From Syntrophorhabdus sp. PtaB.Bin047 (GTDB lineage Bacteria > Desulfobacterota > Syntrophorhabdia > Syntrophorhabdales > Syntrophorhabdaceae): DNA of 64,000 bases. Made by a program: the position numbers and the translations under genes. Shown here piece after piece: positions 6,594 to 61,940 of this stretch. The DNA lies in NCBI GenBank assembly GCA_002067235.1, contig MVQP01000005.1:1-64000 (forward strand), given 5' to 3'. The notes beneath the pieces were generated by a model. That model was not told the DNA's origin. It saw only the letters and a program-made list of their open reading frames with translations, and made no database searches. Numbering within the stretch: position 1 is the stretch's first letter; each line of letters opens with the position of its first letter.

Positions 6594-7074
6594 TTTGCGC
6601 CTCCTTGAGTACGATCTCGTCGATTATGTCCGACACCCGCTGCGGTGTAAGCTGGCCGAAGACCTCGTCGTTGACGACCATGGCCGGCGAAAGGCCGCAG
6701 GCACCGAGGCAGTTGACGGTCTCCACGGTGAAGAGCATGTCCGACGTGGAATCCTGTCCCTCGGTGAGACCGAGCTTCTTCACGATGGCGCCATAGATGC
6801 CCATTGAGCCCTTGACGTGACACGCCGTCCCGTTACAGACCCGTATGAGGTACTTGCCCTTGGGTTTCAGGGTGAAGAGCGAATAAAAGGTCGCCACCCC
6901 GAATACCCTTGCGGGAGATATCCCAAGGGATGTTGCCACGAAGGTCAGTATCTCTTCCGGCAGGTAGCGATATTCCGCCTGTACTGCCTGGAGAATGGGT
7001 ATGAGCCTCGCGGCGTTTCGCTGGTTGTTGTCGATGATCTCGCAAACCCGTTCGAATTTTCGCATTGTCTCCAT
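6568..7074 (-). CDS. hydC: NuoE-like [2Fe-2S] subunit of the hydrogenase
   Basis: A 168-residue NuoE-family protein, a normal length for HydC. Four ligand cysteines are present: C80 and C85 in VCNGTACHVKG, C122 and C126 in NCLGACG. The helical N-terminal half contains the typical VFGVATFYSLF stretch. In HydABC enzymes this subunit transfers electrons next to the flavin subunit. It lies 15 bp after rex and overlaps hydB. ATG 7074 was kept as start, but an ATG 9 nt downstream (7065) with GGAG just before it is also possible. Confidence 0.93.
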   Translation of the reverse strand: METMRKFERVCEIIDNNQRNAARLIPILQAVQAEYRYLPEEILTFVATSLGISPARVFGVATFYSLFTLKPKGKYLIRVCNGTACHVKGSMGIYGAIVKKLGLTEGQDSTSDMLFTVETVNCLGACGLSPAMVVNDEVFGQLTPQRVSDIIDEIVLKEAQNESDAHGA

Positions 7075-7089
7075 TATTCCATCCCATCC

Positions 7090-7782
7090 TTACGATTGGT
7101 TTTGTCTTGCCAGTGTCAGTTTCTTTGCCAGGACCACGAGGGACGAGGCGAGGTTCTCGTGCTGGACGATTATGCCGTGAGGAACGTTCACCTTCACCGG
7201 CGAAAAGTTCCAGATCGCCTGTATGCCGGCGCGGACCATTTCATCCGTCAGTTCTTGGGCGGGGGGTGCCGGAACGGTAAGGATCCCGATCTTGATGCCC
7301 ATGCGTTTCACCATGTCGTGGAGCTTCCCCAGGTGAAAGACCTTGACCCCGTGGATCGTCTTTCCTATCTTGTCCTTGTCGATATCGAAGGCGGCTATGA
7401 TGTTGAGACCGTATTCCTTGAACCTCTCGAACCCGAGGAGCGCCGTCCCGAGATGACCGACACCGATGAGGTAGGCGTCCTTCGTGTTGTTCCAGCCGAG
7501 AAAGGTCTCTATGATGGAAATGAGCTCGTCGATGCTGTAGCCGAGCTTCGGTTTTCCGACGGCCTCGGCGATCCCCAGGTCCTTGCGGACCTGGATGGGG
7601 AGTATGCTGAGGTCGTTGCCGATCTGCGTGCAGGAGATGAAATCCCCCCTGTGTTCGTCGCGCACTTTCTTGAGGTATTGATAATAGAGAGGGAGCCTCC
7701 TCAGTGTTGGTTCGGGGATGGGTTTAGTCGGAAGATCGTTTCTGTCCTCCACGTTCGCCATGCTTACCTCCATCTCGTTCAT
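7090..7782 (-). CDS. rex: Redox-sensing transcriptional repressor Rex
   Basis: A Rex family protein of up to 230 residues. The N-terminal winged helix contains IPEPTLRRLPLYYQYL and ISCTQIGNDL, and the Rossmann domain contains the NADH loop GVGHLGTALLGF. Rex senses the NADH/NAD+ ratio and typically represses fermentation and hydrogenase genes. It is the first gene of the rex-hydC-hydB-hydA operon, so autoregulation together with the hydrogenase is likely. ATG 7782 is the longest start, but ATG 7761 is preceded by GGAGG at 5 nt spacing and may be the true one (223 residues). The promoter region carries a five-copy 14-bp palindromic repeat that does not look like the usual Rex operator. Confidence 0.95.
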   Translation of the reverse strand: MNEMEVSMANVEDRNDLPTKPIPEPTLRRLPLYYQYLKKVRDEHRGDFISCTQIGNDLSILPIQVRKDLGIAEAVGKPKLGYSIDELISIIETFLGWNNTKDAYLIGVGHLGTALLGFERFKEYGLNIIAAFDIDKDKIGKTIHGVKVFHLGKLHDMVKRMGIKIGILTVPAPPAQELTDEMVRAGIQAIWNFSPVKVNVPHGIIVQHENLASSLVVLAKKLTLARQNQS

Positions 7783-7848
7783 TCGATAATTTCCTATCTA
7801 TAAAATCTTATCTATAAGAGCTTATCGATAAAAATATATCGAATAGTC
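7779..7848. repeat. Five-copy 14-bp palindromic repeat array in the rex promoter
   Basis: Units start at 7779, 7793, 7807, 7821 and 7835, exactly 14 bp apart. They share a TATCGATA/TATCTATA core. The fourth is the perfect palindrome TTATCGATAA (7822-7831) and the third is CTTATCTATAAG (7807-7818). The array covers the predicted -10 element, the transcription start and the first start codon of rex, as expected for a repressor-binding array. The cognate regulator is not identifiable from sequence alone. Confidence 0.7.
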
Positions 7849-7861
7849 CCCCGTGAGTCAA
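7833..7861 (-). promoter_or_regulatory. Predicted sigma-70 promoter of the rex-hydCBA operon
   Basis: On the minus strand, a -35 TTGACT (7861-7856) and a -10 TATATT (7838-7833) are separated by 17 bp. Transcription would start near 7826, leaving a short leader that is almost entirely the 14-bp repeat array. Confidence 0.6.
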
Positions 7862-8386
7862 TATTTTTTTGAAACCGTTTTAAGTTTTAAGTGGTTAAGT
7901 GTTAAGTTGAGGCGAAAGACAAGAACTCTTTTCATCTGGAACCTGAAACCCGGAACCGCCTCCAAAAGGGTTGCCCCCGGGAGGCGCCGGGGGCATTTAA
8001 AAACGCATAAGGGGGGGGTGATGGTATCGTGAAGATGACTCTTCAGAGCCTCAATTGCGATTTAGTTTGTGAGTCGGGGACATGGCCTCGGGTACACCAG
8101 TTGAGGTCCTTGCCGACAGCGGTAGTTTCGTCTGCCGGTAGGGGAGGGACGAGGTAGAGGTGGTATGGGGAGCTCGATCGTGTGCGCAGAGAGGGCTTAG
8201 AGGTGATCCAGATAGTTATGGAGGCGAACATGAGGGTCAACATGAGCATGAGGTTATTCAGTATCAGGTCGGACATTCTTCACGTCCCCCGACTCACGTT
8301 ATGGGAAGGAAAGGTGAGGGATTTCCGGTGCCTCACATTTCCCGCCCCTGATAGGTTGCAAATAATGGTTAATGATGCCGCGGATA
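7849..8386. other. Gene-poor intergenic stretch
   Basis: I see no well-supported gene here. A 77-codon minus-strand reading frame (8276-8043) begins with a hydrophobic stretch but lacks a good ribosome site and any recognisable family. A hairpin GCCCCCGG/CCGGGGGC spans 7973-7994. Near-perfect 13-14 bp inverted repeats (GTGAGTCGGGGAC at 8069-8081, complement at 8284-8297) bracket about 200 bp. Another imperfect hairpin (about 8310-8340) lies just downstream of the 8387-8728 gene and may act as its terminator. Confidence 0.4.
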
Positions 8387-8728
8387 TCATCGCGTCACCT
8401 GCCGGTTCGGGTCGCTGCCGTTGTTCCCCTTTCTGAGCCACACGGTGTGATCGAGGATGCCGTATTTCTTCAGCGTCTCGGCAGCCATCAATCCTATTTC
8501 GCTCTCCCCGTGGATATTCTGCACGGTGTCCCAGAGTATATGCAGACTCACGTCTCCGGGGACGGCCGAATGGGTATAGATCCGTGCTTCGTTGAGACCG
8601 GGCGTTGCACCGATGTTGTGGACCAGGTCTCTCAACCACTTGACCACAAGCGGCTCGACATCGGGTTGCGTTCTTAATCGTATGATCTCTATCCATTCCA
8701 TCATTCTTTCTTGCTGATTCTTAAGCAT
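8387..8728 (-). CDS. Conserved-looking small protein of unknown function
   Basis: Up to 113 residues; the more natural start is the ATG at 8701 (MEWIEIIRLRTQ), giving 104 residues with AAGAAAGA upstream. The protein is soluble, mixed alpha/beta, with segments such as ARIYTHSAVPGDVSLHILW that resemble small dimeric ferredoxin-like-fold proteins (antibiotic-biosynthesis-monooxygenase type). I cannot assign a family with certainty. It is divergent from the sigma-54 activator gene, with about 150 bp between them. No signal peptide or membrane segment is visible. Confidence 0.6.
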   Translation of the reverse strand: MLKNQQERMMEWIEIIRLRTQPDVEPLVVKWLRDLVHNIGATPGLNEARIYTHSAVPGDVSLHILWDTVQNIHGESEIGLMAAETLKKYGILDHTVWLRKGNNGSDPNRQVTR

Positions 8729-8839
8729 TCTTTGTGCCAGAACTTATTTCTCCATAAATCCAGCATGTTACATTGTCATGGTCAGATTACTGTGAAATAT
8801 GACGGAAAGTTGCTGGCATATTTGTCAGTTCTGGTCTAT

Positions 8840-8857
8840 ACTATCGCATACGATAGT
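8840..8857. promoter_or_regulatory. Perfect inverted repeat upstream of the sigma-54 activator gene
   Basis: ACTATCG-CATA-CGATAGT is a perfect 7-4-7 inverted repeat 25 bp before the start codon at 8882. It overlaps a possible -10 (TATACT, 8837-8842). It shares the TATCG/CGATA half-sites of the rex promoter array, so the same regulator may bind. Confidence 0.5.
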
Positions 8858-8881
8858 AGCGTAAAGGAGAGGGAAAGCCTT

Positions 8882-10441
8882 ATGGATACCGATGAGAGCG
8901 AGTTCTTTCGGGAGATGACTCTGAAGATATGCGGGACCTTGGACTTGGAGAACGCCCTTCACCAGTGTTTTCTCTACGTGCGTAACATCATACCGGCCGA
9001 TGAGCTCGATCTTTTTGTCTACGATCCTGCCATCGGCACGGTAGACGTGGCGGCTTCGGCGAACGAGTCGGGGGGCACAAGGAGGATGGACAAGACGCAC
9101 CTGCCGCCTGAACTGCGTCAGGAACTCGAAGAACCGTACCGCCGGCCGCGGGTCCGCGTCGCCGAGAACATCTTCGAGGACCCCATTCTGGGGAGGGTTG
9201 CACGGAACCTTGGATGGGAAGAATGCTCGATAATGCTGGGAAGGCTTATCGTCGACGACAAGTACATCGGCGCCCTCGGGATAAGGGCGCGGGGGACGGG
9301 CCGCTTCACCGAGGAACATGTCCGCCTCTGGTCCGTGGTGAACGAACCCGCCGCGATCGCAGTCGCCAACAGCCGCAGGCTCCGGGAAGTGATCGAGCTC
9401 AAGGACATGCTTGCCGACGACAATCGGTACCTCAGGGATGAGCTCAGGAAGAACACCGTCGAGATAGTGGGGGCCGATTTCGGGCTGAAGGAAGCCATGG
9501 AGAGCGTGAGAAAGGTGGCGCCCCTTGCCAGCCCCGTGCTCATCATCGGCGAGACGGGAACAGGCAAGGAGGTCATCGCCAACGCCATCCACAACCTGTC
9601 TCCCCGATACAACGGACCTTTTGTGAAAGTGAACTGCGGGGCCATCCCGGAGTCTCTCATAGACAGCGAGCTCTTCGGCCACGAAAAGGGGGCTTTCACG
9701 GGAGCGCTCGCACGCAAGAGGGGGCGTTTCGAGCGTGCCCACGGAGGGACGATCTTCCTCGACGAGATCAGCGAACTCCCGCCCCACGCGCAGGTGAGGC
9801 TCTTGCGCGTCCTCCAGGAGAAAGAGATAGAAAGGGTGGGCGGAACGGAGCCCGTGCATGTGGACATCAGGATCGTGTCGGCGACGAACCGGAACCTGGA
9901 AAAGATGGTGGAAGACGGTGATTTTCGGGAAGACCTCTATTTCCGTATCAAGGTCTTTCCCATCGAGGTTCCCCCTTTGCGGGCGAGAAAAAACGACATA
10001 CCCGCCCTGGTCCAGCATTTTGTCCGCAAGAAGAGCCGGGAGATGGTGCGCCACACCATACCGCCGCTTGCGCCGGGGGCCATAGATGCACTTATGATGT
10101 ATGACTGGCCGGGAAATGTCCGGGAAGTGGAGAACGCCGTGGAGAGGGCCCTCATCCTCTCCGACGGCAAGCCCCTGAAGTTCGACGGCGTTCTGGGGGT
10201 TTCGGGCGCGTTCCAGGAGCGCCCTTCCGCAGCCACCGGCGAGAGCCGGGGCTCCGTCACGCTCCACGACATCGAGGCCGAACATATAAGCCGCATCCTG
10301 AGAGCGGCCGGGGGCCGGATCGAGGGCCCCGGGGGGGCAGCCGAACTTCTCGACATGAACCCCGGTACGCTCCGCCATCGCATGAGAAAACTGGGCATAC
10401 CTTTCGGAAGAAGATCTCATGCCCGGGATGGCGGACGGTAA
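8882..10441 (+). CDS. GAF-domain sigma-54-dependent transcriptional activator
   Basis: The start is set at ATG 8882 (519 residues), after AAGGAGAGGG. The longer upstream reading frame has no domain and crosses the operator-like repeat. An N-terminal GAF sensor domain (about 20-175) is followed by an AAA+ domain with Walker A GETGTGKE near residue 222, the sigma-54 contact loop GAFTGA near 270 and a Walker B segment (GGTIFLDEISELP). A Fis-type helix-turn-helix ends the protein (about 480-515). Such proteins open sigma-54 promoters in response to a signal bound by the GAF domain; a redox or small-molecule signal is plausible. It precedes the second hydrogenase operon but has its own transcription unit. 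Its target promoters are not identifiable here. Confidence 0.92.
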   Translation: MDTDESEFFREMTLKICGTLDLENALHQCFLYVRNIIPADELDLFVYDPAIGTVDVAASANESGGTRRMDKTHLPPELRQELEEPYRRPRVRVAENIFEDPILGRVARNLGWEECSIMLGRLIVDDKYIGALGIRARGTGRFTEEHVRLWSVVNEPAAIAVANSRRLREVIELKDMLADDNRYLRDELRKNTVEIVGADFGLKEAMESVRKVAPLASPVLIIGETGTGKEVIANAIHNLSPRYNGPFVKVNCGAIPESLIDSELFGHEKGAFTGALARKRGRFERAHGGTIFLDEISELPPHAQVRLLRVLQEKEIERVGGTEPVHVDIRIVSATNRNLEKMVEDGDFREDLYFRIKVFPIEVPPLRARKNDIPALVQHFVRKKSREMVRHTIPPLAPGAIDALMMYDWPGNVREVENAVERALILSDGKPLKFDGVLGVSGAFQERPSAATGESRGSVTLHDIEAEHISRILRAAGGRIEGPGGAAELLDMNPGTLRHRMRKLGIPFGRRSHARDGGR

Positions 10442-52370: not shown

Positions 52371-52697
52371 TCATTTGAAGTGTTTTTTGAAGGTTTTTTC
52401 CAGGGTTTGCCTCACGTCCTCGCGGAAGCCTTCATAGCTCTTCAGGAACCTCTTTCCCTCAGGGGTTATGTTGGAGCCCCCGCCGGACACACCTCCCACC
52501 TTCCTTTCAAGGAGTGCGAAACCCAGCCTCGCCTCTATCGCCTGAAGCATCAGCCAGGCCTTCCGGTAGGACATGTTGAGGTCCATGGCCGCCTTGTGGA
52601 GGGACCCCGTCTCCTCGATCCGCTTGAGCACCTGGTAAGGGCCCTCGCCGAACGCCTTTCCGTTGTTATCTATCCACACCTTGTAACCCACTTTCAT
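52371..52697 (-). CDS. ModE-like molybdate-responsive regulator (DNA-binding domain only)
   Basis: The start is set at ATG 52697 (108 residues); the longer frame upstream overlaps the promoter. The protein is a ModE-type winged helix with PYQVLKRIEETGSLHKAAMDLNMSYRKAWLMLQAIEARLGFALLERKVGGVSGGGSNITPEG, where the GGGS segment is ModE-typical. The molybdate-binding Mop domains of E. coli ModE are absent, as in many short ModE homologues. It is divergent from the TonB receptor operon, whose promoter carries two ModE-type boxes, so it is probably its regulator. How it senses the metal is unclear. Confidence 0.87.
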   Translation of the reverse strand: MKVGYKVWIDNNGKAFGEGPYQVLKRIEETGSLHKAAMDLNMSYRKAWLMLQAIEARLGFALLERKVGGVSGGGSNITPEGKRFLKSYEGFREDVRQTLEKTFKKHFK

Positions 52698-52728
52698 ATG
52701 AAGGCCCCCTTGCTCGCGTGACAAGGCA

Positions 52729-52757
52729 ATTATAGATAACACCTGTAATCCTGTCAA
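52729..52757 (-). promoter_or_regulatory. Consensus sigma-70 promoter of the ModE-like gene
   Basis: On the minus strand, TTGACA (52757-52752) and TATAAT (52734-52729) are both perfect consensus and spaced by 17 bp. A TGTAA-N10-TTACA inverted repeat (52744-52763) overlaps the -35. Confidence 0.75.
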
Positions 52758-52911
52758 GTTACAATATTTCCTCCAGCACACCCCCTCACCGGGCCCCCGG
52801 CGTTCACAATAGACAACGACAGTGTTCATCACATTAACCTGTAATTACAAACAGATAGAACATTCTGCATAGAGCACGGACAGAATATCGAACTATCGTG
52901 AAAAATTGGCC

Positions 52912-52941
52912 TTGACTTGGCTTTATATCCGATGATATATA
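52912..52941 (+). promoter_or_regulatory. Predicted promoter of the TonB-receptor operon
   Basis: TTGACT (52912-52917) and TATATA (52936-52941) are spaced by 18 bp. The first ModE-type box covers the spacer and -10, so a bound regulator would block transcription. Confidence 0.65.
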
Positions 52942-52944
52942 ACG
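52921..52944. promoter_or_regulatory. ModE-type box 1
   Basis: CTTTATATC-N6-TATATAACG: the 9-N6-9 arrangement of ModE operators such as that of E. coli modABCD. The right half is perfect and the left half matches at 7 of 9. Confidence 0.7.
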
Positions 52945-52946
52945 TT

Positions 52947-52970
52947 CGTTATATCCACTACGATATAAGG
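52947..52970. promoter_or_regulatory. ModE-type box 2
   Basis: CGTTATATC-N6-GATATAAGG, 26 bp after box 1. Its right half reaches the ribosome site (AGGAGG) of the TonB receptor gene. Confidence 0.65.
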
Positions 52971-52981
52971 AGGCTTGCCAC

Positions 52982-54991
52982 ATGGTTGCTTTCTCCCGAC
53001 CCACCCTCTTTCTGGTTCTCATCGCCCTACTGGCCATGGTATTCAGTCCTGGCGCCGGAGCGCAGGACAAAACGAAGGACGACGTGTTCACCCTCGGAGA
53101 GATCGACGTAAAGGACCAGACCGAGGTGAGCAGGAACGTAACGGTCGAAAAGATCTACCAGGAGGACATGCGCGATTTCAACAAGAACAACGTCGCCCAG
53201 GCGGTCAACATGCTGCCGGGCGTCACGATGACGAAAAACAGCCGAAACGAACAGATGGTATACATACGGGGCTTCGATATGAGGCGCGTCCCCATCTACC
53301 TCGACGGCATCCCGATCTACGTGCCCTACGACGGCTATCCCGACCTGGGACGTTTCCTGACATACGACATGTCGGAGATCACCGTTTCCAAGGGGTTCAC
53401 GTCGGTGCTCTATGGCCCCAACACCGAGGGAGGAGCCATCAACATGATATCGAAGAGACCGCAGAGGGCCTTCGAGGGAAACATAAGCACGGGGTACGCG
53501 ACGGGCGACACCTTCACGAGCTACATCAACCTGGGGACGAACCAGAAGAAGTGGTATCTCCAGGGCGGCGGATCCTATGTGAGCAGCGACTACACCAGGA
53601 TGTCCGACAACTGGACGGAAAGACCGACGGAGAACGGCGGGCACCGCGAGAACTCCTACTACAGGGACAGGAAGTACAACCTCAAGTTCGGGTTCACGCC
53701 CCTCGAGGGGCACGAGTATGCCATGAGCTACATAAACCAGCACGGCGTGAAAGGTAATCCCCCGTACGCCGGCCTTGACCCTTCCGTTACCATCCGGTAC
53801 TGGCAGTGGCCTTACTGGGATAAGGAAAGCCTTTACTTCACATCCAGAACACCCATCGGGAAGGATTCGTATTTCAAGGTCAGGCTCTACTACGACCAGT
53901 ATCAGAACTCCCTCTACAGCTATGACAACGACACGTACTCGACGATGAAGAAGGGTTCCTCCTGGATGAGCGATTTCAGCGACAACACCGGCGGCGGCTC
54001 CATCGAGGCCGGAACGACCCTCATCCCCAGGAACAACATAAAGGCCGCCTTCCATTACAAGGAGGACAAGCACAAGGAACACAACCAGCCGAACCCCTAT
54101 CAGCACTTCAAGGACGAGATATGGTCCGCCGGGCTCGAGGACACGCTTCAGATCACTGACAAGCTCTACAGCATCTTCGGCGCCAGCTATGACAACATAA
54201 AGACGCTTGAGGCCGAGAACTACAATTCAACAACGAAGAAGTTCTCCGATTTCGAAAGGGACAGCCAGTCAGCCTTCAACCCGCAGATAGGGTTCTTCTA
54301 TGACCTCACGAACACGGCAAAGATACATGCGACGGTCGCGAAGAAGACACGACTCCCCACGATGAAGGACAAGTACTCCTACAAACAGGGCACCGCCCTG
54401 CCGAACCCCAATCTGAGACCGGAGAAATCGATCAACTACGAATTGGGATACCAGGACATGTTCTTCAAGAAGATCGGACTGAAGACCGCCATCTTCTATT
54501 CCGACATAACGGACATGGTGATGCAGGTCAAGGTCCCCAATCCTGCGAACCCCAAGACCACGCTGAACCAGAACCAGAATATCGGCGACGTGAGACGTTA
54601 CGGTGCCGAACTCGATGTATCGGGCACCATCGTCACGAACCTGAACGGCGGCTTCAACTACACATATATCTGGTCCGACAACAGAACCGACTCGACGCGG
54701 ATAACGGATATCCCGAAGCACAAGCTGGCCGCCTACGCCAAGTACGCCCCCCTTAAGGGCCTCGACCTCACCGCGGACGTCGAGTACAATTCCCAGCGAT
54801 ACAGTTCCTCCGACGGCATCGAGGTCGCGAGGGCTTTCGCCGTCGCCAACTTCAAGGCGGCCTACGAGTTCCTGAAGGGACTCAGCATCGAAGGCGGGGT
54901 ATCGAACATATTCGACAGGGACTATTCACTTGCCGAAGGTTACCCCGAGGCGGGGAGAAGCTTTTTCAGCAACCTCGTCTACAAGTTCTGA
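52982..54991 (+). CDS. TonB-dependent outer-membrane receptor
   Basis: A 669-residue protein. A signal peptide (about 1-27) precedes a TonB-box-like segment (DDVFTLGEIDV), a plug domain (NVAQAVNMLPGVTMTKN, MVYIRGFDMRRVPIYLDGIPIYVPYDG) and a 22-strand-like beta barrel ending in Phe. Substrate is likely a metal chelate. Its promoter has ModE-type boxes and its operon encodes TonB, a FecBCD-type importer, FmdE-like and MoeA-like proteins, suggesting molybdenum or tungsten rather than iron. No Fur box was seen. Confidence 0.93.
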   Translation: MVAFSRPTLFLVLIALLAMVFSPGAGAQDKTKDDVFTLGEIDVKDQTEVSRNVTVEKIYQEDMRDFNKNNVAQAVNMLPGVTMTKNSRNEQMVYIRGFDMRRVPIYLDGIPIYVPYDGYPDLGRFLTYDMSEITVSKGFTSVLYGPNTEGGAINMISKRPQRAFEGNISTGYATGDTFTSYINLGTNQKKWYLQGGGSYVSSDYTRMSDNWTERPTENGGHRENSYYRDRKYNLKFGFTPLEGHEYAMSYINQHGVKGNPPYAGLDPSVTIRYWQWPYWDKESLYFTSRTPIGKDSYFKVRLYYDQYQNSLYSYDNDTYSTMKKGSSWMSDFSDNTGGGSIEAGTTLIPRNNIKAAFHYKEDKHKEHNQPNPYQHFKDEIWSAGLEDTLQITDKLYSIFGASYDNIKTLEAENYNSTTKKFSDFERDSQSAFNPQIGFFYDLTNTAKIHATVAKKTRLPTMKDKYSYKQGTALPNPNLRPEKSINYELGYQDMFFKKIGLKTAIFYSDITDMVMQVKVPNPANPKTTLNQNQNIGDVRRYGAELDVSGTIVTNLNGGFNYTYIWSDNRTDSTRITDIPKHKLAAYAKYAPLKGLDLTADVEYNSQRYSSSDGIEVARAFAVANFKAAYEFLKGLSIEGGVSNIFDRDYSLAEGYPEAGRSFFSNLVYKF

Positions 54992-54999
54992 AGGGTAAT

Positions 55000-55344
55000 A
55001 TGGCCATCAAGGAAACACCCGATCTTCTCGAAAGTCTCTACGGAGACACCCTGGAGCACATCACCATCGAGAGGATCGTCGTCGGTGTGTGTTTCACCGG
55101 CGTCAAGCTATCAAACGGCTGCGGCGGGATCTCGTATACCCCTGTGGCCGACCCGCACGGCTCCTGTTGCTCCATCCTCAATACAATGGGGCGGAAGCGG
55201 GGGGCACTGAAGGGTACCTCCGTTGACGAAAGCCTTCAGTCGTCCCCCGCAACTCCCCTGAGAACGGTCGTCAAGATCGTCGTCATGAATGCCCTATCGG
55301 CATTCTTCACGAATAACCTTCCGGAGGCGTCGCGTCAGTCATGA
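55000..55344 (+). CDS. DUF4213-domain protein
   Basis: A 114-residue protein resembling the DUF4213/DUF364 N-terminal domain (LESLYGDTLEHITIERIVVGVCFTGVKLSNGCGGISYTP). Such domains occur in proteins proposed to act in metal chelation or transport. It has five Cys, including CC in GSCCSIL. The usual C-terminal DUF364 domain is missing, so it is a short form. It lies 8 bp after the receptor and overlaps tonB by 4 bp. Function unknown. Confidence 0.72.
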   Translation: MAIKETPDLLESLYGDTLEHITIERIVVGVCFTGVKLSNGCGGISYTPVADPHGSCCSILNTMGRKRGALKGTSVDESLQSSPATPLRTVVKIVVMNALSAFFTNNLPEASRQS

Positions 55345-56108
55345 GAATAATCCCTCTCCACAACATGCAACGGGAGTTTCTCGTATCTCTGATCCTGCAC
55401 CTCTGTTTCTTCGGCGCCGCGGCCGTCTTCGGCCATAACCTGGGGAAGTCCCGGGATGCGGTCCTCGTCTACCTCACCGACGAACTCCCCGGTGGAGGCT
55501 CGGGCGGCTCGTCCCGCCCGGCGACGTTTTCACAGGGAGGCGGAAAGCGGCAGGCCCCGCCCGTCCGTCGCGAGCTTCAAGAGAAACAGGTGGCAAGACC
55601 GTTGTCGACAGCCAGGTCTCCGGCAAAGGAGCCTGAAAGGAAGACGGACACAAGAGAACGGGAGGTCTCCGACCGTGCTGAGACGGCCGCAGACGTGGCT
55701 GGCATATCGAACGACCAGTCATGGCAGGCCGGTGGAGGTCAGGGCCGGTCTGGAACAGGCGGGGGGGGCGGTTCCGGGTCCGGCTACGGCCAGGGTGTGG
55801 GAAGCGGCAGAGGACTGGCAGACGCCAGGACGCAGTATTTGAAGGAGCATTTCGCGTACATCCGGGATCTTATCATGAAACACCTTGCGTATCCCCAGAT
55901 GGCACGAAAGATGGGTTGGAAGGGAAAGGTTATCGTTGCCTTCGTTATCAGAGAGAACGGCACCGTGGAAAATACCCGCGTCCTTAGAAGCTCGGGTTAC
56001 GAAGTCCTCGATCACAGCACACTGAAGACCATCAGGGACGTACAGCCTTTTCCGAAGCCACCGGTAAAGGCGGAACTTGTGATACCCATCGTCTACAGAC
56101 TCGAATAG
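55341..56108 (+). CDS. tonB: TonB energy transducer
   Basis: A 255-residue protein. One N-terminal membrane helix (about 12-30) is followed by a long Gly/Ser- and charged-residue-rich spacer (about 50-150) and a C-terminal TonB domain (YPQMARKMGWKGKVIVAFVI, ending in IPIVYRLE). It should energise the receptor encoded two genes upstream. ExbB and ExbD are not in the operon and must be supplied elsewhere. The start ATGA overlaps the DUF4213 stop. Confidence 0.92.
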   Translation: MRIIPLHNMQREFLVSLILHLCFFGAAAVFGHNLGKSRDAVLVYLTDELPGGGSGGSSRPATFSQGGGKRQAPPVRRELQEKQVARPLSTARSPAKEPERKTDTREREVSDRAETAADVAGISNDQSWQAGGGQGRSGTGGGGGSGSGYGQGVGSGRGLADARTQYLKEHFAYIRDLIMKHLAYPQMARKMGWKGKVIVAFVIRENGTVENTRVLRSSGYEVLDHSTLKTIRDVQPFPKPPVKAELVIPIVYRLE

Positions 56109-56116
56109 GAGGAGTA

Positions 56117-56713
56117 ATGAGTACAGACCATCTCGACCTGCGGGAATGCCTTAAGAAGGCATCGCTCTTCCACGGCGATCTCTGCGCGGGGATCACGCTG
56201 GGTACCCGAATGTCCATACTGGGACTTAAGGCCATCGGCATCGACGACCCCACGGGGAAGGACCGAAAGAATCTCATCGTCTTCGTCGAGACGGACCGTT
56301 GCGCGACCGACGCGATCCTGGCTGTGACGGGATGCCATCCCGGAAAGAGGACGATGAAGATACTGGACTACGGCAAGATGGCCGCGACCTTTGTCAACCT
56401 CGCCACGGGAAAAGCCGTCCGCGTCGTGGTGAAAGACAGGACGATGGACCCGAACAAGGAATACTCCCGGGAGATGATCGAAGCGGAACCTCACACGGAG
56501 AAATACGCCATGATGCCCCCCGAGGACCTCTTCGAGATTGAAGAGGTCGACGTGGACCTGTGGCCCGAGGACATGCCCGGCAAACCTCTCAGGATAGTCA
56601 CGTGTTCCTCCTGCGGGGAAAGGATCATGGACATGCGGGAGGTACGCGACAATGGCGGGATCCTTTGCAGACCCTGCGCGGAAGGCAGGACTTACTGGCG
56701 GAAAAAGACGTGA
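56117..56713 (+). CDS. FmdE-like protein with C-terminal zinc ribbon
   Basis: A 198-residue protein. The FmdE core has FHGDLCAGITLGTRMS (about 18-33) and DRCATDAILAVTGCHPGKRTMKILDYGK (about 60-87). A C-terminal zinc ribbon has CSSC and CRPC (about 163-187). FmdE-type proteins were named for copurifying with molybdenum/tungsten formylmethanofuran dehydrogenase but occur widely without it, often near molybdate or tungstate genes. No such dehydrogenase is in the window. It may handle the metal after uptake; inference. Confidence 0.88.
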   Translation: MSTDHLDLRECLKKASLFHGDLCAGITLGTRMSILGLKAIGIDDPTGKDRKNLIVFVETDRCATDAILAVTGCHPGKRTMKILDYGKMAATFVNLATGKAVRVVVKDRTMDPNKEYSREMIEAEPHTEKYAMMPPEDLFEIEEVDVDLWPEDMPGKPLRIVTCSSCGERIMDMREVRDNGGILCRPCAEGRTYWRKKT

Positions 56714-56728
56714 GAACAGGATGATCGG

Positions 56729-57538
56729 ATGAGAGACACGGCAATTGACTGGAACGAGGTCTGGAAAAAGGAGAGTGCGAAAAGGTCCGTGAAGAAACGG
56801 GACGTCAGCTTCTGGAATGAAAAGGCCCGCAACTTCTTCAAGAAACCCTGGGAATCGAACTACTCCGAGGATTTCCTCAAGATAATGGAACCCAGACGCT
56901 GCTGGACCGTGCTGGACATGGCCTGCGGGACGGGCGCGCTGACGGTTCCCCTGTCACGGTACGTCAGGAGGATAACCGCCGTCGACTTCTCCCCCCGGAT
57001 GCTCGAGGGCCTCGAGGAACAATGCCGGGTGCAGGGCATCGAGAACGTCAGGACCATCAAGGCGAGCTGGGAGGATGACTGGAGTTCCCTGGGCATCGGC
57101 GAGTACGACGTGGTGATCGCGTCGCGCTGCCTCGTCGTCGACGACCTCCGGAAGGCAGTCATGAAACTGAACGATACGGCCCGGGAACGCGTCTACATTT
57201 CCACCATCGTCGGGGACGGGCCTCATGACCGGATGATCTATGAGGCTGTCGGGAGGCGACTCACTCCCGGGCCGGACTACATATACACCTACAATCTCCT
57301 CCATCAGCTCGGTATCTATGCCAACCTGTTCATCATCAAGGACATGAGGAGCGAATCCTTCCGTGACGGCGACGAGGCCCTTGCATACTACGAGCATTTC
57401 CTCGGGAAGTTGACGAAAGGTGAGAAGGGGGACCTTGGCAGCTATCTGCGAAAACACCTTGTGTCGAGGAACGGCAGGTGGGTCCTTGATTACAGGAGAA
57501 TAACACGATGGGCGGTGATGTGGTGGGAAAAGGAATAA
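56729..57538 (+). CDS. Class I SAM-dependent methyltransferase
   Basis: A 269-residue protein with the SAM-binding motif VLDMACGTGALTVPLSRYV (about 57-75) and ITAVDFSPRMLEGL. It has an N-terminal extension (WNEVWKKESAKR) seen in methyltransferases encoded near corrinoid or metal-chelate transport genes. It lies between the FmdE-like gene and the permease. It could modify a small-molecule metal ligand; no substrate is known. Confidence 0.85.
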   Translation: MRDTAIDWNEVWKKESAKRSVKKRDVSFWNEKARNFFKKPWESNYSEDFLKIMEPRRCWTVLDMACGTGALTVPLSRYVRRITAVDFSPRMLEGLEEQCRVQGIENVRTIKASWEDDWSSLGIGEYDVVIASRCLVVDDLRKAVMKLNDTARERVYISTIVGDGPHDRMIYEAVGRRLTPGPDYIYTYNLLHQLGIYANLFIIKDMRSESFRDGDEALAYYEHFLGKLTKGEKGDLGSYLRKHLVSRNGRWVLDYRRITRWAVMWWEKE

Positions 57539-57563
57539 CGGAAACGAGCAAGGTCTTTCTGCC

Positions 57564-58577
57564 ATGAGAACGGGACTCGTCATCACAGGCCTCACCTGCG
57601 CCCTCGTCGTTGCCGTACTCATCTCCCTGGTGCTGGGCAAGTACCCGGTGGGCATCGAGGATGTCTGCGGGTTCTTTCTCTGGAAGGTATTCAATGCCGG
57701 TGTGAACCTGTCCATCGACAGGCAGCTCCTGGAGAACATCCTCCTCAATATCCGCCTGCCCCGTATCATGGCGGCGGTCTTCGTGGGAGCATCGCTCTCC
57801 ATCTCCGGGGTCGCCTTTCAGGCGATGTTCTTGAACCCTCTTGTTTCGCCGGGCATCCTGGGCGTGCTCGCGGGAGCGTCCTTCGGAGCCGCCCTCGGGA
57901 TGGTGCTTTCAAAGAGCTGGTTCTTCGTGCAGGCGAGCTGTTTCGTATTCGGTTTTCTGGCCGTAATGGCGGCGGTCGGCGTTGCCCGTTTTTACAAGGG
58001 CAATTCGATCATCCTCCTGATTCTCGGCGGGGTAATAAGCGGTGCGCTTTTTACTTCCCTTTTGTCCATCGTGAAGTACCTCGCCGACCCTTACAACCAG
58101 CTTCCCGCGATAGTCTACTGGCTCATGGGCGGTCTCACCCTTGTCGACGCAGGGACCATCAGGACGAGCGCCATCCCCGTCGTTGCCGGTGTCGCTCTTG
58201 TCATCTCCCTGTCGGGATACCTCAACGTCCTCTCCATGGGTGACGAGGAGGCGCGGGCCATGGGTGTTCCCGTCGAACGGATCAGGATCATTCTCGTTGT
58301 CATTACCACGATGCTGAGTGCCATCACCGTTGTGCTTGCCGGGATGGTCGGCTGGGTCGGGCTCATCATTCCCCACATCTCGAGGATGATCGTCGGACCC
58401 GACAACCGCGTGCTGATCCCGGTGAGCGCCCTTGTCGGGGCGCTTTATCTCGTGGCCGTCGACGATATTTCACGACTTCTCTTCACAACGGAGATACCCC
58501 TGGGGATCATCACCTCCCTCGTGGGCATACCGTTCTTCGCCGTCGTCCTCAAGAGGGCCGGCAGGGGGTGGAGTTGA
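57564..58577 (+). CDS. FecCD-family ABC importer permease
   Basis: A 337-residue type II importer permease of the BtuC/FecCD family with about nine or ten membrane helices. RLPRIMAAVFVGASLSISGVAFQ and the late GMVGWVGLIIPHISRMIVGPDNR are diagnostic. The family moves corrinoids, haem, iron-siderophores and, in MolBC, molybdate/tungstate. With the adjacent ATPase and binding protein it makes a complete importer. The stop overlaps the ATPase start. Confidence 0.95.
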   Translation: MRTGLVITGLTCALVVAVLISLVLGKYPVGIEDVCGFFLWKVFNAGVNLSIDRQLLENILLNIRLPRIMAAVFVGASLSISGVAFQAMFLNPLVSPGILGVLAGASFGAALGMVLSKSWFFVQASCFVFGFLAVMAAVGVARFYKGNSIILLILGGVISGALFTSLLSIVKYLADPYNQLPAIVYWLMGGLTLVDAGTIRTSAIPVVAGVALVISLSGYLNVLSMGDEEARAMGVPVERIRIILVVITTMLSAITVVLAGMVGWVGLIIPHISRMIVGPDNRVLIPVSALVGALYLVAVDDISRLLFTTEIPLGIITSLVGIPFFAVVLKRAGRGWS

Positions 58578-59419
58578 TGGCGCTCATGGAGGTCAGGCAC
58601 GTCACCTTCGCGTACAGGGAGAAACCGGTCCTGAAAGACGTCAGCGTGGAGGTCGGCGAGGGAGAGGTTGTCACTCTCCTTGGCCCGAACGGGAGCGGGA
58701 AAAGCACCCTCATCAAGACGGTCATCGGCCTCATCAGGCCGGGACAGGGCACCGTCCGCCTTGCCGGCCGGGACATATCATCCATTCCGCAGAAGGAGCT
58801 GGCGAGGCACATAGCTTACGTTCCCCAGTTCCACAGGGGCGCCTTTCCCTACAGGGTCCTCGACGTCATTCTCATGGGCCGGATGCCCCACAAGACGTTC
58901 TTCTTCCGCTACTCTCAGGAAGATATCGACATCGCGCGGACCGTGATGGAGAAACTCTCCATCACGCATCTCGCCGGGCGCCCCTACACGGAGATAAGCG
59001 GCGGTGAGAGGCAGCTCACCCTCATCGCCCGGGCCCTGGCACAGGGCGCTCGCATCTTTGTCATGGACGAGCCCGCGAGCGGCCTCGACTACGGCAATCA
59101 GCTCAGATTGCTCGAACACATCACGGCCCTGTCCTGTGAGGGGTACACCTTCATCAAGTCGACCCACTCACCGGAGCACGCCCTCTGGATAGCACACCGC
59201 GCCGTCATGATCAAGAAAGGGGCGATCATTGCCGACGGGCGCTGCGACGATGTCGTGAACAGCGAAACCCTGCTGCAGCTCTACAACATCAGGGTCAACG
59301 TCATCAGGCTGAACGGAACGCTGCGCGTGTGCGTGCCCGAAATGCTGAAGGACAACGGCGCCGGGGAGGGGACGGAACGCCCATCCGTGTTCGTTCACAG
59401 GGGAACCCTGCGGAGGTGA
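58577..59419 (+). CDS. ABC importer ATPase
   Basis: The start is set at ATG 58577 (280 residues), overlapping the permease stop; a GTG 9 nt upstream is possible. Walker A GPNGSGKST, signature ISGGERQ, Walker B RIFVMDEPASG and H-loop STHSPEH are intact. It energises the FecCD-type permease. A C-terminal segment (about 225-280) follows the domain. Confidence 0.95.
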   Translation: MALMEVRHVTFAYREKPVLKDVSVEVGEGEVVTLLGPNGSGKSTLIKTVIGLIRPGQGTVRLAGRDISSIPQKELARHIAYVPQFHRGAFPYRVLDVILMGRMPHKTFFFRYSQEDIDIARTVMEKLSITHLAGRPYTEISGGERQLTLIARALAQGARIFVMDEPASGLDYGNQLRLLEHITALSCEGYTFIKSTHSPEHALWIAHRAVMIKKGAIIADGRCDDVVNSETLLQLYNIRVNVIRLNGTLRVCVPEMLKDNGAGEGTERPSVFVHRGTLRR

Positions 59420-59423
59420 GGCA

Positions 59424-60710
59424 ATGATCAGTTACGAGAAGGCGCTGGAGATGGTGCTGGAGAACGTTCGCGTCCTCAGGCCCGAAAGACGGCCCGTCCT
59501 GGAAAGCACAGGCCAGGTGGCGGCCCACGATGTCCTTTCCGATGTCGATCTGCCCCCGGCCGACATCGCGGGACCGGACGGGTACGCCGTGAGGTCCTCC
59601 GACCTCCTGACGGCGGGCAGCGACACCCCTGTCGCCCTCAGCATCATTGGCGCGGCACGAGCGGGACGGTCGACGAAGAGAGCCGTTAGAACGGGCACCG
59701 CCATCCGGATCATGGCGGGCTCCCTCATCCCCGAAGGGGCCGACTGCGTCGTCCCCTTTGAAGACACGGATGAGCCGGATGACAAGAACGGACCCAACAG
59801 GGACAACCCGTCGACGGTCAGCGTCTTCTCCTCCGTTCGGAGAGGCACCGGCATCCGCCGAGCGGGAAGCAACGTGAAGACGGGGTCCGTGGCGGTACTG
59901 AGGGGAACGGTCCTCGGCCCCGCGCAGGTCTCCGCGCTCCTGTCCATAGGACAGACGAGGGTCACTGTGATCCGTCGCCCCGTGGTAACGATAATGGCCA
60001 CGGGTGACGAACTGGTCGCCCCGGGGAAGGAGCTGTCTCCGGGGAAAACGTATAATTCCAACGCAGCGGCGATAGCCTCCCTGGTCGGCCATTACGGCGG
60101 GATACCAAGGATCCTTGGCATTGCTCGCGACAATGAGGCATCGGTGCTGGAAAAGCTCCGAAAGGGACTCGATTCAGATGCGATCATCACGAGCGGCGGT
60201 ATTTCTCACGGCGATTTCGACCTTGTTCGCCTGGTCCTCGGGAGGATAGGGAAAACACTTTTTTCCCGGGTCAATATGGGTCCGGGCGCCGGAGCCGTCT
60301 TTGGCCTCATCAACAGGCCCCCCGTGAGGGGAAGGAACGGCGAGGTCCCGGTATTCGCGCTTTCGGGCTCTCCGGCAGGCTGTCTCATCAATTTTGAGAC
60401 CCTCGTACGGCCCGCCCTTCTCAAGATGCAGGGGTTCCCGCGGTTGAACCACCCTCTCGTGGAGGCAACAGCCGCCAATTCGGCGGTCAACAGCAAGGGG
60501 ATGCCCTGCGTCAGATGGACGTACCTTGAAGAGAATGACGGGAAATACAGGGCCACGATCAACGCAGGGGGCAACAAGGCCAACCTGACATCGATAGCAA
60601 TGGCCAATTCCCTGACCATCCTCCCCGAGGAGTCAACGGTCAAGACGGGAGATTCCGTACGTGTCCTGCCCCTCGATTGGGGACGATACCGTTTTGGTGC
60701 CCACACGTAA
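59424..60710 (+). CDS. moeA: MoeA-like molybdenum-insertion protein
   Basis: A 428-residue MoeA family protein. N-terminal segments (GPDGYAVRSSDL, IRIMAGSLIPEGADCVVPFEDT), the MPT-binding MATGDELV and TSGGISHGDFD, and C-terminal domain IV are present. MoeA inserts Mo or W into molybdopterin-AMP. The usual KPGKP segment reads GPGAG (VNMGPGAGAVFG), so two conserved Lys are missing, and the usual PGNP reads SGSP. Position inside a transport operon is unusual and supports a Mo/W role for the whole cluster. Confidence 0.9.
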   Translation: MISYEKALEMVLENVRVLRPERRPVLESTGQVAAHDVLSDVDLPPADIAGPDGYAVRSSDLLTAGSDTPVALSIIGAARAGRSTKRAVRTGTAIRIMAGSLIPEGADCVVPFEDTDEPDDKNGPNRDNPSTVSVFSSVRRGTGIRRAGSNVKTGSVAVLRGTVLGPAQVSALLSIGQTRVTVIRRPVVTIMATGDELVAPGKELSPGKTYNSNAAAIASLVGHYGGIPRILGIARDNEASVLEKLRKGLDSDAIITSGGISHGDFDLVRLVLGRIGKTLFSRVNMGPGAGAVFGLINRPPVRGRNGEVPVFALSGSPAGCLINFETLVRPALLKMQGFPRLNHPLVEATAANSAVNSKGMPCVRWTYLEENDGKYRATINAGGNKANLTSIAMANSLTILPEESTVKTGDSVRVLPLDWGRYRFGAHT

Positions 60711-60724
60711 AGGAAGAGGTTGCC

Positions 60725-61873
60725 GTGACAACATATGGAGAAGACGGGAGAGCGGGTCGCACTCCCGCAATGTTATACGTGCTCGTTGGGGCAGCATGTG
60801 TGCTCATTGTCGCCGTGCTGACCGTCCTCGCGGCGGCCGGCGGCGTGCAGGCGAGAGAACTTACCGACATATTCGGCAGGAAGGTCACCGTTCCTGAGCG
60901 CATAAGGCGCGCCTGGGCCACGTCGCCGCCGGCCACCTACATGCTCTATGCCGTGGATCCAGGCGTCCTTGCGGGCCTCAACACCCCGGTAAGGGAATGG
61001 GAAAGGAAGTACTTTCGCAAAGATCTGCAGCAACTGCCGGTCCTCGGCGGATGGTTCGGGCAGGGCAATGTGCCCAATATCGAGATGGTCCTGAAAGTGA
61101 ATCCCGAGATCATCATCGCGACGAGCCTGACCTCCTCCATCGAAGCAAGGACCACGCAGACGCTGAAAGACGTTCCCATACCGGCGGTGAGCGTGAAAAT
61201 GGAGAGACTCTCCGATTATCCCGCCGCCTTCACCTTCCTTGGTGAGGCCCTCGGCCGCCGGGAACGGGCGAAAAAGCTGAGCGACTACGCCCGGGAGACG
61301 ATCACGAAGATGGCGGCGATCGTCGAGGCCATACCACCGGGGCAGAGGGTATCAGTCTATTACGCCGAAGGAGAGGACGGGCTCAGCACCGAGTGCCACG
61401 GGTCCATGCACGTCGAGCTCATAGGGCTTGCAGGAGGGCGCAGCGTTCACCGCTGCGTATCCAAGGATGTCTACGGCATGGAAAAGGTCTCCATGGAACA
61501 GGTGCTGCTGTACGATCCGGAGGTCATCCTCGTCTTCGAACCTCTCTTCTTCAAGAGTGTTCTCTCCGATCCCAGGTGGCGACAGATAAGGGCGGTGAGG
61601 GAGCGGAAGGTTTATCTCATACCGAGGCAACCCTTCAACTGGTTCGACCGTCCTCCGTCCTTCATGCGCCTTATCGGCCTCAAGTGGCTGACGAACCTCC
61701 TCCACCCCCAACTGTATTCCGTGGACATCGTGAAGGAAACGCAAACCTTTTTCCGTTTCTTTCTCGGCATCGACCTGACCGCCAGGCAGGCCCTGGAGAT
61801 AATACACCCCCGGCGGAACGTCTCAGGGCGCGGGGCAGAGGTCACGCAACACGGGTCGCACGGGAAACGCTAG
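60725..61873 (+). CDS. ABC importer periplasmic binding protein
   Basis: A 382-residue protein from GTG 60725 (AGGAAGAGG upstream); an ATG at 60770 would give a more classical signal peptide but lacks a site. A long N-terminal hydrophobic segment (about 16-41) ends in VQARELTDIFGRKVTVPERI, the start of the BtuF/FepB-type fold. EIIIATSL and YDPEVILVFEPLF segments are typical. It presents the substrate to the FecCD-type permease. Last gene of the nine-gene operon. Confidence 0.92.
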   Translation: MTTYGEDGRAGRTPAMLYVLVGAACVLIVAVLTVLAAAGGVQARELTDIFGRKVTVPERIRRAWATSPPATYMLYAVDPGVLAGLNTPVREWERKYFRKDLQQLPVLGGWFGQGNVPNIEMVLKVNPEIIIATSLTSSIEARTTQTLKDVPIPAVSVKMERLSDYPAAFTFLGEALGRRERAKKLSDYARETITKMAAIVEAIPPGQRVSVYYAEGEDGLSTECHGSMHVELIGLAGGRSVHRCVSKDVYGMEKVSMEQVLLYDPEVILVFEPLFFKSVLSDPRWRQIRAVRERKVYLIPRQPFNWFDRPPSFMRLIGLKWLTNLLHPQLYSVDIVKETQTFFRFFLGIDLTARQALEIIHPRRNVSGRGAEVTQHGSHGKR

Positions 61874-61909: not shown

Positions 61910-61940
61910 TTGACAGCGTTATTACCATATGTATATAACA
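61910..61940 (+). promoter_or_regulatory. Orphan promoter with a third ModE-type box
   Basis: TTGACA (61910-61915) is followed by a ModE-type box CGTTATTAC-N6-TATATAACA (61917-61940) that spans a -10 (ATATAA at 61933-61938, 17-bp spacing). Transcription would start near 61945, which is also the first base of an ATG. Confidence 0.6.

Follow-up and report, generated by a model that had tools for sequence, protein, structure and literature searches.

A gene cluster of Syntrophorhabdus sp. PtaB.Bin047 most probably forms a molybdenum- and tungsten (Mo/W)-regulated, TonB-energised acquisition operon. It occupies positions 52371-61873, the region analysed here, of a 64,000-nucleotide stretch of contig MVQP01000005.1 (the window, which corresponds to contig C5 in a draft genome of 3.6 Mb that is 89% complete). 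A sequence-only reading had proposed a TonB-dependent Mo/W system at this place; the case for a system dedicated to Mo/W now has good support from conserved operators of the ModE type, the composition of the ModE-site regulon in the host genome, an independent second operon with such sites, and relatives in several phyla that lie near full-length ModE and ModABC genes, and from these we infer the transport of Mo/W itself.

Two tandem ModE-type operators, absent from the sequence-only reading, are situated upstream of the gene for the TonB-dependent outer-membrane receptor (TBDR; Table 1). They are inverted repeats of the pattern CGTTATAT-N8-ATATAACG, an 8-8-8 form for which mismatches were counted per site; their starts are 26 bp apart, and the second ends 11 bp before the receptor ATG, where it overlaps or abuts the ribosome-binding region. 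Scanning the window at up to three mismatches gives three pattern matches where 0.07 are expected, about 40-fold over shuffles, and none of 100 shuffles reached three. The E. coli K-12 modA promoter contains CGTTATATTGTCGCCTACATAACG, which has the same 8-8-8 form, and the published ModE consensus ATCGNTATATA-N6-TATATANCGAT shares both half-sites and spacing with the window operators (PMC545781). The 26-bp tandem spacing is found again in seven relatives within the class, in orthologous or related operons. A gene-blind scan of 395 genomes of the phylum with the composite of the inner half-sites (ATATAACG-NN-CGTTATAT, zero mismatches) returned two matches, namely the window and a site upstream of a modA homologue; a zero-mismatch composite is too strict for surveying a phylum, though both matches fit.

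The host genome contains 11 sites at two or fewer mismatches, and 19 at three or fewer, as compared with one for a reversed-pattern control at the latter threshold. Two of the 11 precede the window operon. Three sites are found before a second operon on contig C61, which comprises genes for a methyltransferase, a substrate-binding protein (SBP), a TBDR, MoeA and a flavodoxin, and whose binding protein is 46% identical to that of the window. Sites also precede modA/modB or modABC-type genes on contigs C43, C98 and C147 (with TIGR01256 scores above cut-off for C43 and C98), a full-length DUF4213-DUF364 gene on C49 (a perfect site), a moeA gene on C40 whose divergent neighbour encodes an AOR-family oxidoreductase, and a porin-like gene without a family match on C30. 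Receptor plug domains number five in the genome, two of them in site-bearing operons, and no site is reported near the other three. The C30 gene (L020, 4692-6044) has up to three ModE-type sites upstream, and the porin-like outer-membrane protein that it encodes is possibly a Mo/W-regulated passive channel.

Related gene clusters occur in other genomes. A binding-protein alignment was the sole query used to find relatives in named genomes, and operators played no part in selection; 347 binding-protein relatives were found, of which 79 loci were retained. A close relative of the binding protein is present in 13 of the 46 genomes of the host's class, and relatives from the same genus and family include Syntrophorhabdus sp. 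PtaU1.Bin058. Near the SBP gene in the 79 loci are genes for TBDR (58 loci), ATPase (50), FecCD permease (49), methyltransferase (41), TonB (36), FmdE (27) and DUF4213 (13), together with ModABC components in several and MoeA in 4, all counts being lower bounds as neighbours were recognized by simple BLAST. These loci contain 48 ModE-type sites at two or fewer mismatches, distributed over 29 of them and mostly 14-60 bp upstream of TBDR, SBP, TonB, FmdE, methyltransferase or ModA starts; ten first-order Markov simulations give none or one (about 0.3 expected), and the reversed pattern gives one. In a maximum-likelihood tree built from 98 binding proteins, ModE evidence is spread across the whole family, in members labelled in their records as Thermodesulfobacteriota, Campylobacterota, Pseudomonadota, Spirochaetota and Myxococcota. 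The ModE-type operators, as predicted by these matches, are conserved in at least three phyla.

The binding protein itself provides a link to a solved structure. Its closest structure is 4PAG, an SBP of Sulfurospirillum deleyianum with 38% identity, which leads both the profile search (E 2e-111, versus 3e-28 for MolA HI_1472; 4PAG and 4ovk are best and MolA about level with 4hn9) and a fold search with an AlphaFold model of pLDDT 80.8 (TMt 0.90, followed by 4ovk, 4hn9 and MolA HI_1472 at 0.73). The 4PAG record used carries no assigned ligand name; the protein shares about 88-90% identity with SBPs whose genes adjoin one for full-length ModE, and thus the best solved structure belongs to the same system. 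The window SBP was also considered as a specific MolA orthologue, an assignment that we reject because 4PAG and 4ovk outscore MolA and 4hn9 is about level with it. Its likeness to MolA is one of branch to branch within a large family, and is by itself no proof of Mo/W binding.

Every gene named in the sequence-only reading is backed by a Pfam match, and the tight spacing that it described is also borne out. The nine plus-strand genes are separated by gaps ranging from short overlaps to 25 bp, and very likely form a single operon.

Table 1. Genes and operators of the candidate Mo/W acquisition region (window coordinates)
Feature	Position	Strand	Evidence
ModE-type winged-helix DNA-binding domain, 108 amino acids	52371..52697	-	TIGR00637, HTH_1
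ModE-type operator 1, CTTTATAT-CCGATGAT-ATATAACG	52921..52944		1 mismatch
ModE-type operator 2, CGTTATAT-CCACTACG-ATATAAGG	52947..52970		1 mismatch
TonB-dependent outer-membrane receptor (TBDR), 669 amino acids	52982..54991	+	Pfam Plug + barrel
DUF4213-only protein, 114 amino acids, probably degenerating	55000..55344	+	Pfam DUF4213
Dedicated TonB protein	55341..56108	+	TonB_C E 1.9e-20
FmdE-like protein with zinc finger	56117..56713	+	PF02663 E 5.5e-32
S-adenosylmethionine (SAM)-dependent class I methyltransferase	56729..57538	+	Pfam methyltransferase
FecCD-type inner-membrane permease	57564..58577	+	PF01032 E 4.5e-77
ABC transporter ATPase, FecE/BtuD/F420-0 type	58568..59419	+	ABC_tran
MoeA-like protein	59424..60710	+	MoeA_N/MoCF/MoeA_C
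Periplasmic metal-complex binding protein (SBP)	60677..61873 (probable start 60770)	+	PF01497 Peripla_BP_2

Translation of the SBP probably begins at 60770 rather than at 60677, since a signal-peptide-like stretch follows the ATG at the former position. The operon encodes both a receptor with plug and beta barrel and a TonB protein to partner it, as TonB-dependent transport demands; ExbB and ExbD genes are not in the operon itself, and the rest of the host genome was not searched for them. Just past the operon end, at 61917-61940, is a weak ModE-type site with three mismatches.

Not all of these genes are equally well retained. In the close relatives L045 and L047 the MoeA gene is deleted, leaving in L045 a remnant of 34 amino acids, and its N-terminal remnant is joined in frame to the SBP open reading frame (L045 9558-9659; L047 near 10481, minus strand). 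The DUF4213 gene is broken or internally deleted in the same two relatives, and the window version lacks the C-terminal half that a DUF4213-DUF364 protein usually has. As relatives have lost both, MoeA and DUF4213 are dispensable, and the core therefore consists of receptor, TonB, FmdE, methyltransferase, permease, ATPase and SBP; the methyltransferase is intact in the orthologous operons L045, L047, L048 and L049. The sequence-only reading had leaned on MoeA and FmdE as signs of Mo/W, and both are present, yet this is weaker support than it seems given the loss of MoeA from two close relatives' operons, and we do not regard MoeA as a defining component. The host genome has four MoeA genes.

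We propose that a shortage of molybdate or tungstate in the cytoplasm would lift ModE-type repression at the two tandem operators, and that the receptor, energised by its own TonB with ExbB and ExbD from elsewhere, would bring in across the outer membrane a Mo/W species that is scarce or bulky; the type III SBP would then pass this species to the importer made up of FecCD permease and ATPase. FmdE and the methyltransferase, acting in the cytoplasm, may help to free or handle the metal, joined in some genomes by radical SAM enzymes, flavin monooxygenases and proteins of the DUF364 family, and MoeA may insert it into molybdopterin. Several points weigh against a Mo/W-dedicated operon. No chelator biosynthesis genes were recognized. 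No operator at two or fewer mismatches is present in 50 of the 79 loci, and the Desulfobacteraceae branch mostly has none, such that regulation may differ there or the site may have diverged. The local ModE-type protein has no sensor domain, the TOBE matches in the genome being confined to two ABC ATPases, and the window SBP resembles MolA no more than it does other SBPs for metal complexes (4ovk, 4hn9).

TonB-dependent receptors serve substrates that are too large or too scarce for porins (PMC11658791); because of this, and because modA-type transporters co-occur and the clusters carry enzymes that could act on organic ligands, we have indirect grounds to suppose that Mo/W would be imported as a complex and not as the free oxyanion, an organic chelate being plausible. 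The same Mo/W system with an inorganic cargo, whether free oxyanion at extreme scarcity, polyoxometalate, or thiomolybdate or thiotungstate with the methyltransferases handling the thio species, is possible but the less probable choice. In its favour, MolA binds free molybdate and tungstate (PMC4031551), many hosts metabolise sulfate or sulfur, and the clusters combine several SAM methyltransferases with the lack of recognizable chelator biosynthesis; as many hosts live with sulfide, thiomolybdate or thiotungstate has to be taken as a serious alternative. Against it, free molybdate is of a size that porins admit, transporters of the modA type are encoded as well, the characterised substrates of TonB-dependent transporters are mostly larger complexes, and the presence of further enzymes in the cytosol, of the radical SAM and flavin monooxygenase kinds, suggests that the cargo has an organic part. 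Whether there is a widespread TonB-dependent pathway for a Mo/W metallophore or for thiomolybdate/thiotungstate in bacteria of anaerobic and sulfidic habitats, with a cytosolic release pathway of methyltransferases, radical SAM enzyme or flavin monooxygenase, FmdE and DUF364, seems to us an evenly balanced question.

The regulator requires closer examination. The sequence-only reading described a ModE-like regulator divergent from the receptor, and the ModE DNA-binding domain is indeed there (Table 1); its match to NCBIfam TIGR00637 ModE_repress (E 7e-18, 64.5 bits) falls under the cut-off of 98.5, and Pfam finds no TOBE/Mop molybdate-binding domain, so it is not a full ModE. The gene starts with the ATG at 52697 and is the sole ModE match in the genome as assembled (89% complete), and its orthologues in L045 (98% identity) and L047 (92%) likewise diverge from this operon. 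This raises the alternative that the operators are real and are bound by a local helix-turn-helix-only regulator that answers another signal, for which the missing TOBE domain speaks, as do Desulfovibrio ModE homologues of this short form that are tied to a different site (PMC545781). We consider this unlikely, given that the same operators occur at modA genes and in genomes with a full-length, two-TOBE ModE. A ModE gene lies inside the locus in 11 of the 79 relatives; in Sulfurospirillum and its relatives the adjoining ModE has its full length, including two TOBE matches, and its gene points away from an ExbB-ExbD-globin-SBP-SBP-TBDR-methyltransferase-TonB run, an operator site lying between the two. 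In S. cavolei and S. diekertiae, operators that fit the pattern perfectly or nearly so stand ahead of the SBP or methyltransferase gene. In L025 (contig C59, 3975-4235) an open reading frame of 86 amino acids resembles by eye the C-terminal end of the window ModE domain and has no Pfam match; it is possibly a regulator remnant.

Somewhat less likely still is an ordinary operon for the uptake of iron siderophores, haem or cobalamin that has a ModE-like neighbour by chance. Receptor, permease, ATPase and SBP do belong to families whose named representatives come from systems for siderophores, haem or B12, and the solved homologues of the receptor are siderophore, B12 and metal-complex receptors. 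Nevertheless, the window contains no cobalamin riboswitch or any other RNA family and no match to the Fur box GATAATGATNATCATTATC at three or fewer mismatches (a divergent Fur box could escape); neither SBP nor receptor reaches an NCBIfam B12 or siderophore cut-off, and no score exceeds those for BtuB, BtuC or BtuF. Chance proximity also sits poorly with operators kept in at least three phyla and with other site-bearing genes that are mostly Mo/W genes. If the system instead salvaged a ready-made Mo/W cofactor such as molybdopterin, with the pterin handled after import by MoeA and FmdE, this would explain MoeA in both the window operon and the second operon, but molybdopterin is labile outside proteins and MoeA is both rare among the relatives by the sequence test used (4/79) and deleted in L045 and L047, making this a very improbable account.

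The wider clusters (94 loci) add a second methyltransferase type (42), ExbB (30), radical SAM enzymes (27), flavin monooxygenases (15), DUF364 (14), truncated globins (11) and ModD (5). On contig C59 (L025, 4943-7089) a radical SAM gene is followed by a gene for a 'VDARGWQN' family protein of 379 amino acids without Pfam or NCBIfam match and with a poor predicted structure (mean pLDDT 42.9); the pair has a 3-mismatch ModE-type site 25 bp upstream and also lies beside several related receptor clusters, and its products are candidate ligand-processing enzymes. In Sulfurospirillum cavolei (L130, 11907-13715) a radical SAM domain is fused to a periplasmic-binding-protein-like domain inside a Mo-linked cluster. 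Truncated (bacterial-like) globin genes occur in Campylobacterota clusters (L130 9454-10029 and 6679-7227; L115 13295-13894), some directly behind a ModE-type site. Genes for a CobW/HypB-like GTPase, an ABC ATPase and an SBP_bac_6 protein adjoin receptor and SBP in L058 (7496-10235) and L059 (about 6885-9543), and L025 also encodes (7133-9001) an N-terminal YkuD (L,D-transpeptidase) domain fused to Mur ligase domains.

The plug-barrel receptor, TonB, type III SBP, FecCD permease and BtuD-like ATPase are shared with FhuA/FecA siderophore and BtuB cobalamin uptake; those systems are under Fur or riboswitch control, whereas the window operon has ModE-type operators and links to FmdE, methyltransferases, MoeA, DUF364 and ModABC. 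The molybdate/tungstate importer MolABC of Haemophilus influenzae (HI1470-1472) likewise has a FecCD-type permease and a type III SBP, but the published description gives it low affinity and no dedicated receptor (PMC4031551), while the window system has its own TBDR and TonB and an SBP closer to 4PAG. Operator sequence and spacing are those of the E. coli ModE/ModABC regulon, and ModA, ModB and ModC genes stand under such operators in the host; the host adds two TonB-dependent receptors, MoeA, DUF364 and a porin-like protein, and its regulator is the DNA-binding domain alone. The Azotobacter molybdophores protochelin and azotochelin are a precedent for Mo chelates in metal nutrition, and PMC13036778 cites siderophore use for Mo and control of W; the Azotobacter compounds are catechol siderophores of an aerobic diazotroph, and such biosynthesis genes were not recognized in this analysis. 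A delta-proteobacterial regulon study placed ModE sites only at modABC-type operons (PMC545781). TonB-dependent Mo/W uptake of this form is not described in the searchable literature, a non-exhaustive set that is short on subscription journals and does not include regulon databases, and words in molybd- or tungst- are absent from a review of TonB-dependent transporters published in 2024.

In summary, the operon suggests that the machinery of siderophore-type uptake serves here, controlled by ModE, for a class of metals new to it. Mo and W are usually taken to cross the outer membrane passively, through porins; if our reading is true, bacteria of habitats in which sulfide limits both metals would acquire them actively, probably as complexes, by means of a ModE-controlled receptor system common to Thermodesulfobacteriota, Campylobacterota, and some Pseudomonadota and Spirochaetota. 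Roles would follow for FmdE, DUF364 and unnamed methyltransferases, and many 'iron siderophore' annotations would be corrected. The proposal is testable in cultured Sulfurospirillum, for which a crystal structure of one family SBP already exists (4PAG), and it would imply an undiscovered Mo/W ligand and add Mo/W to the metal classes that have outer-membrane receptors devoted to them.

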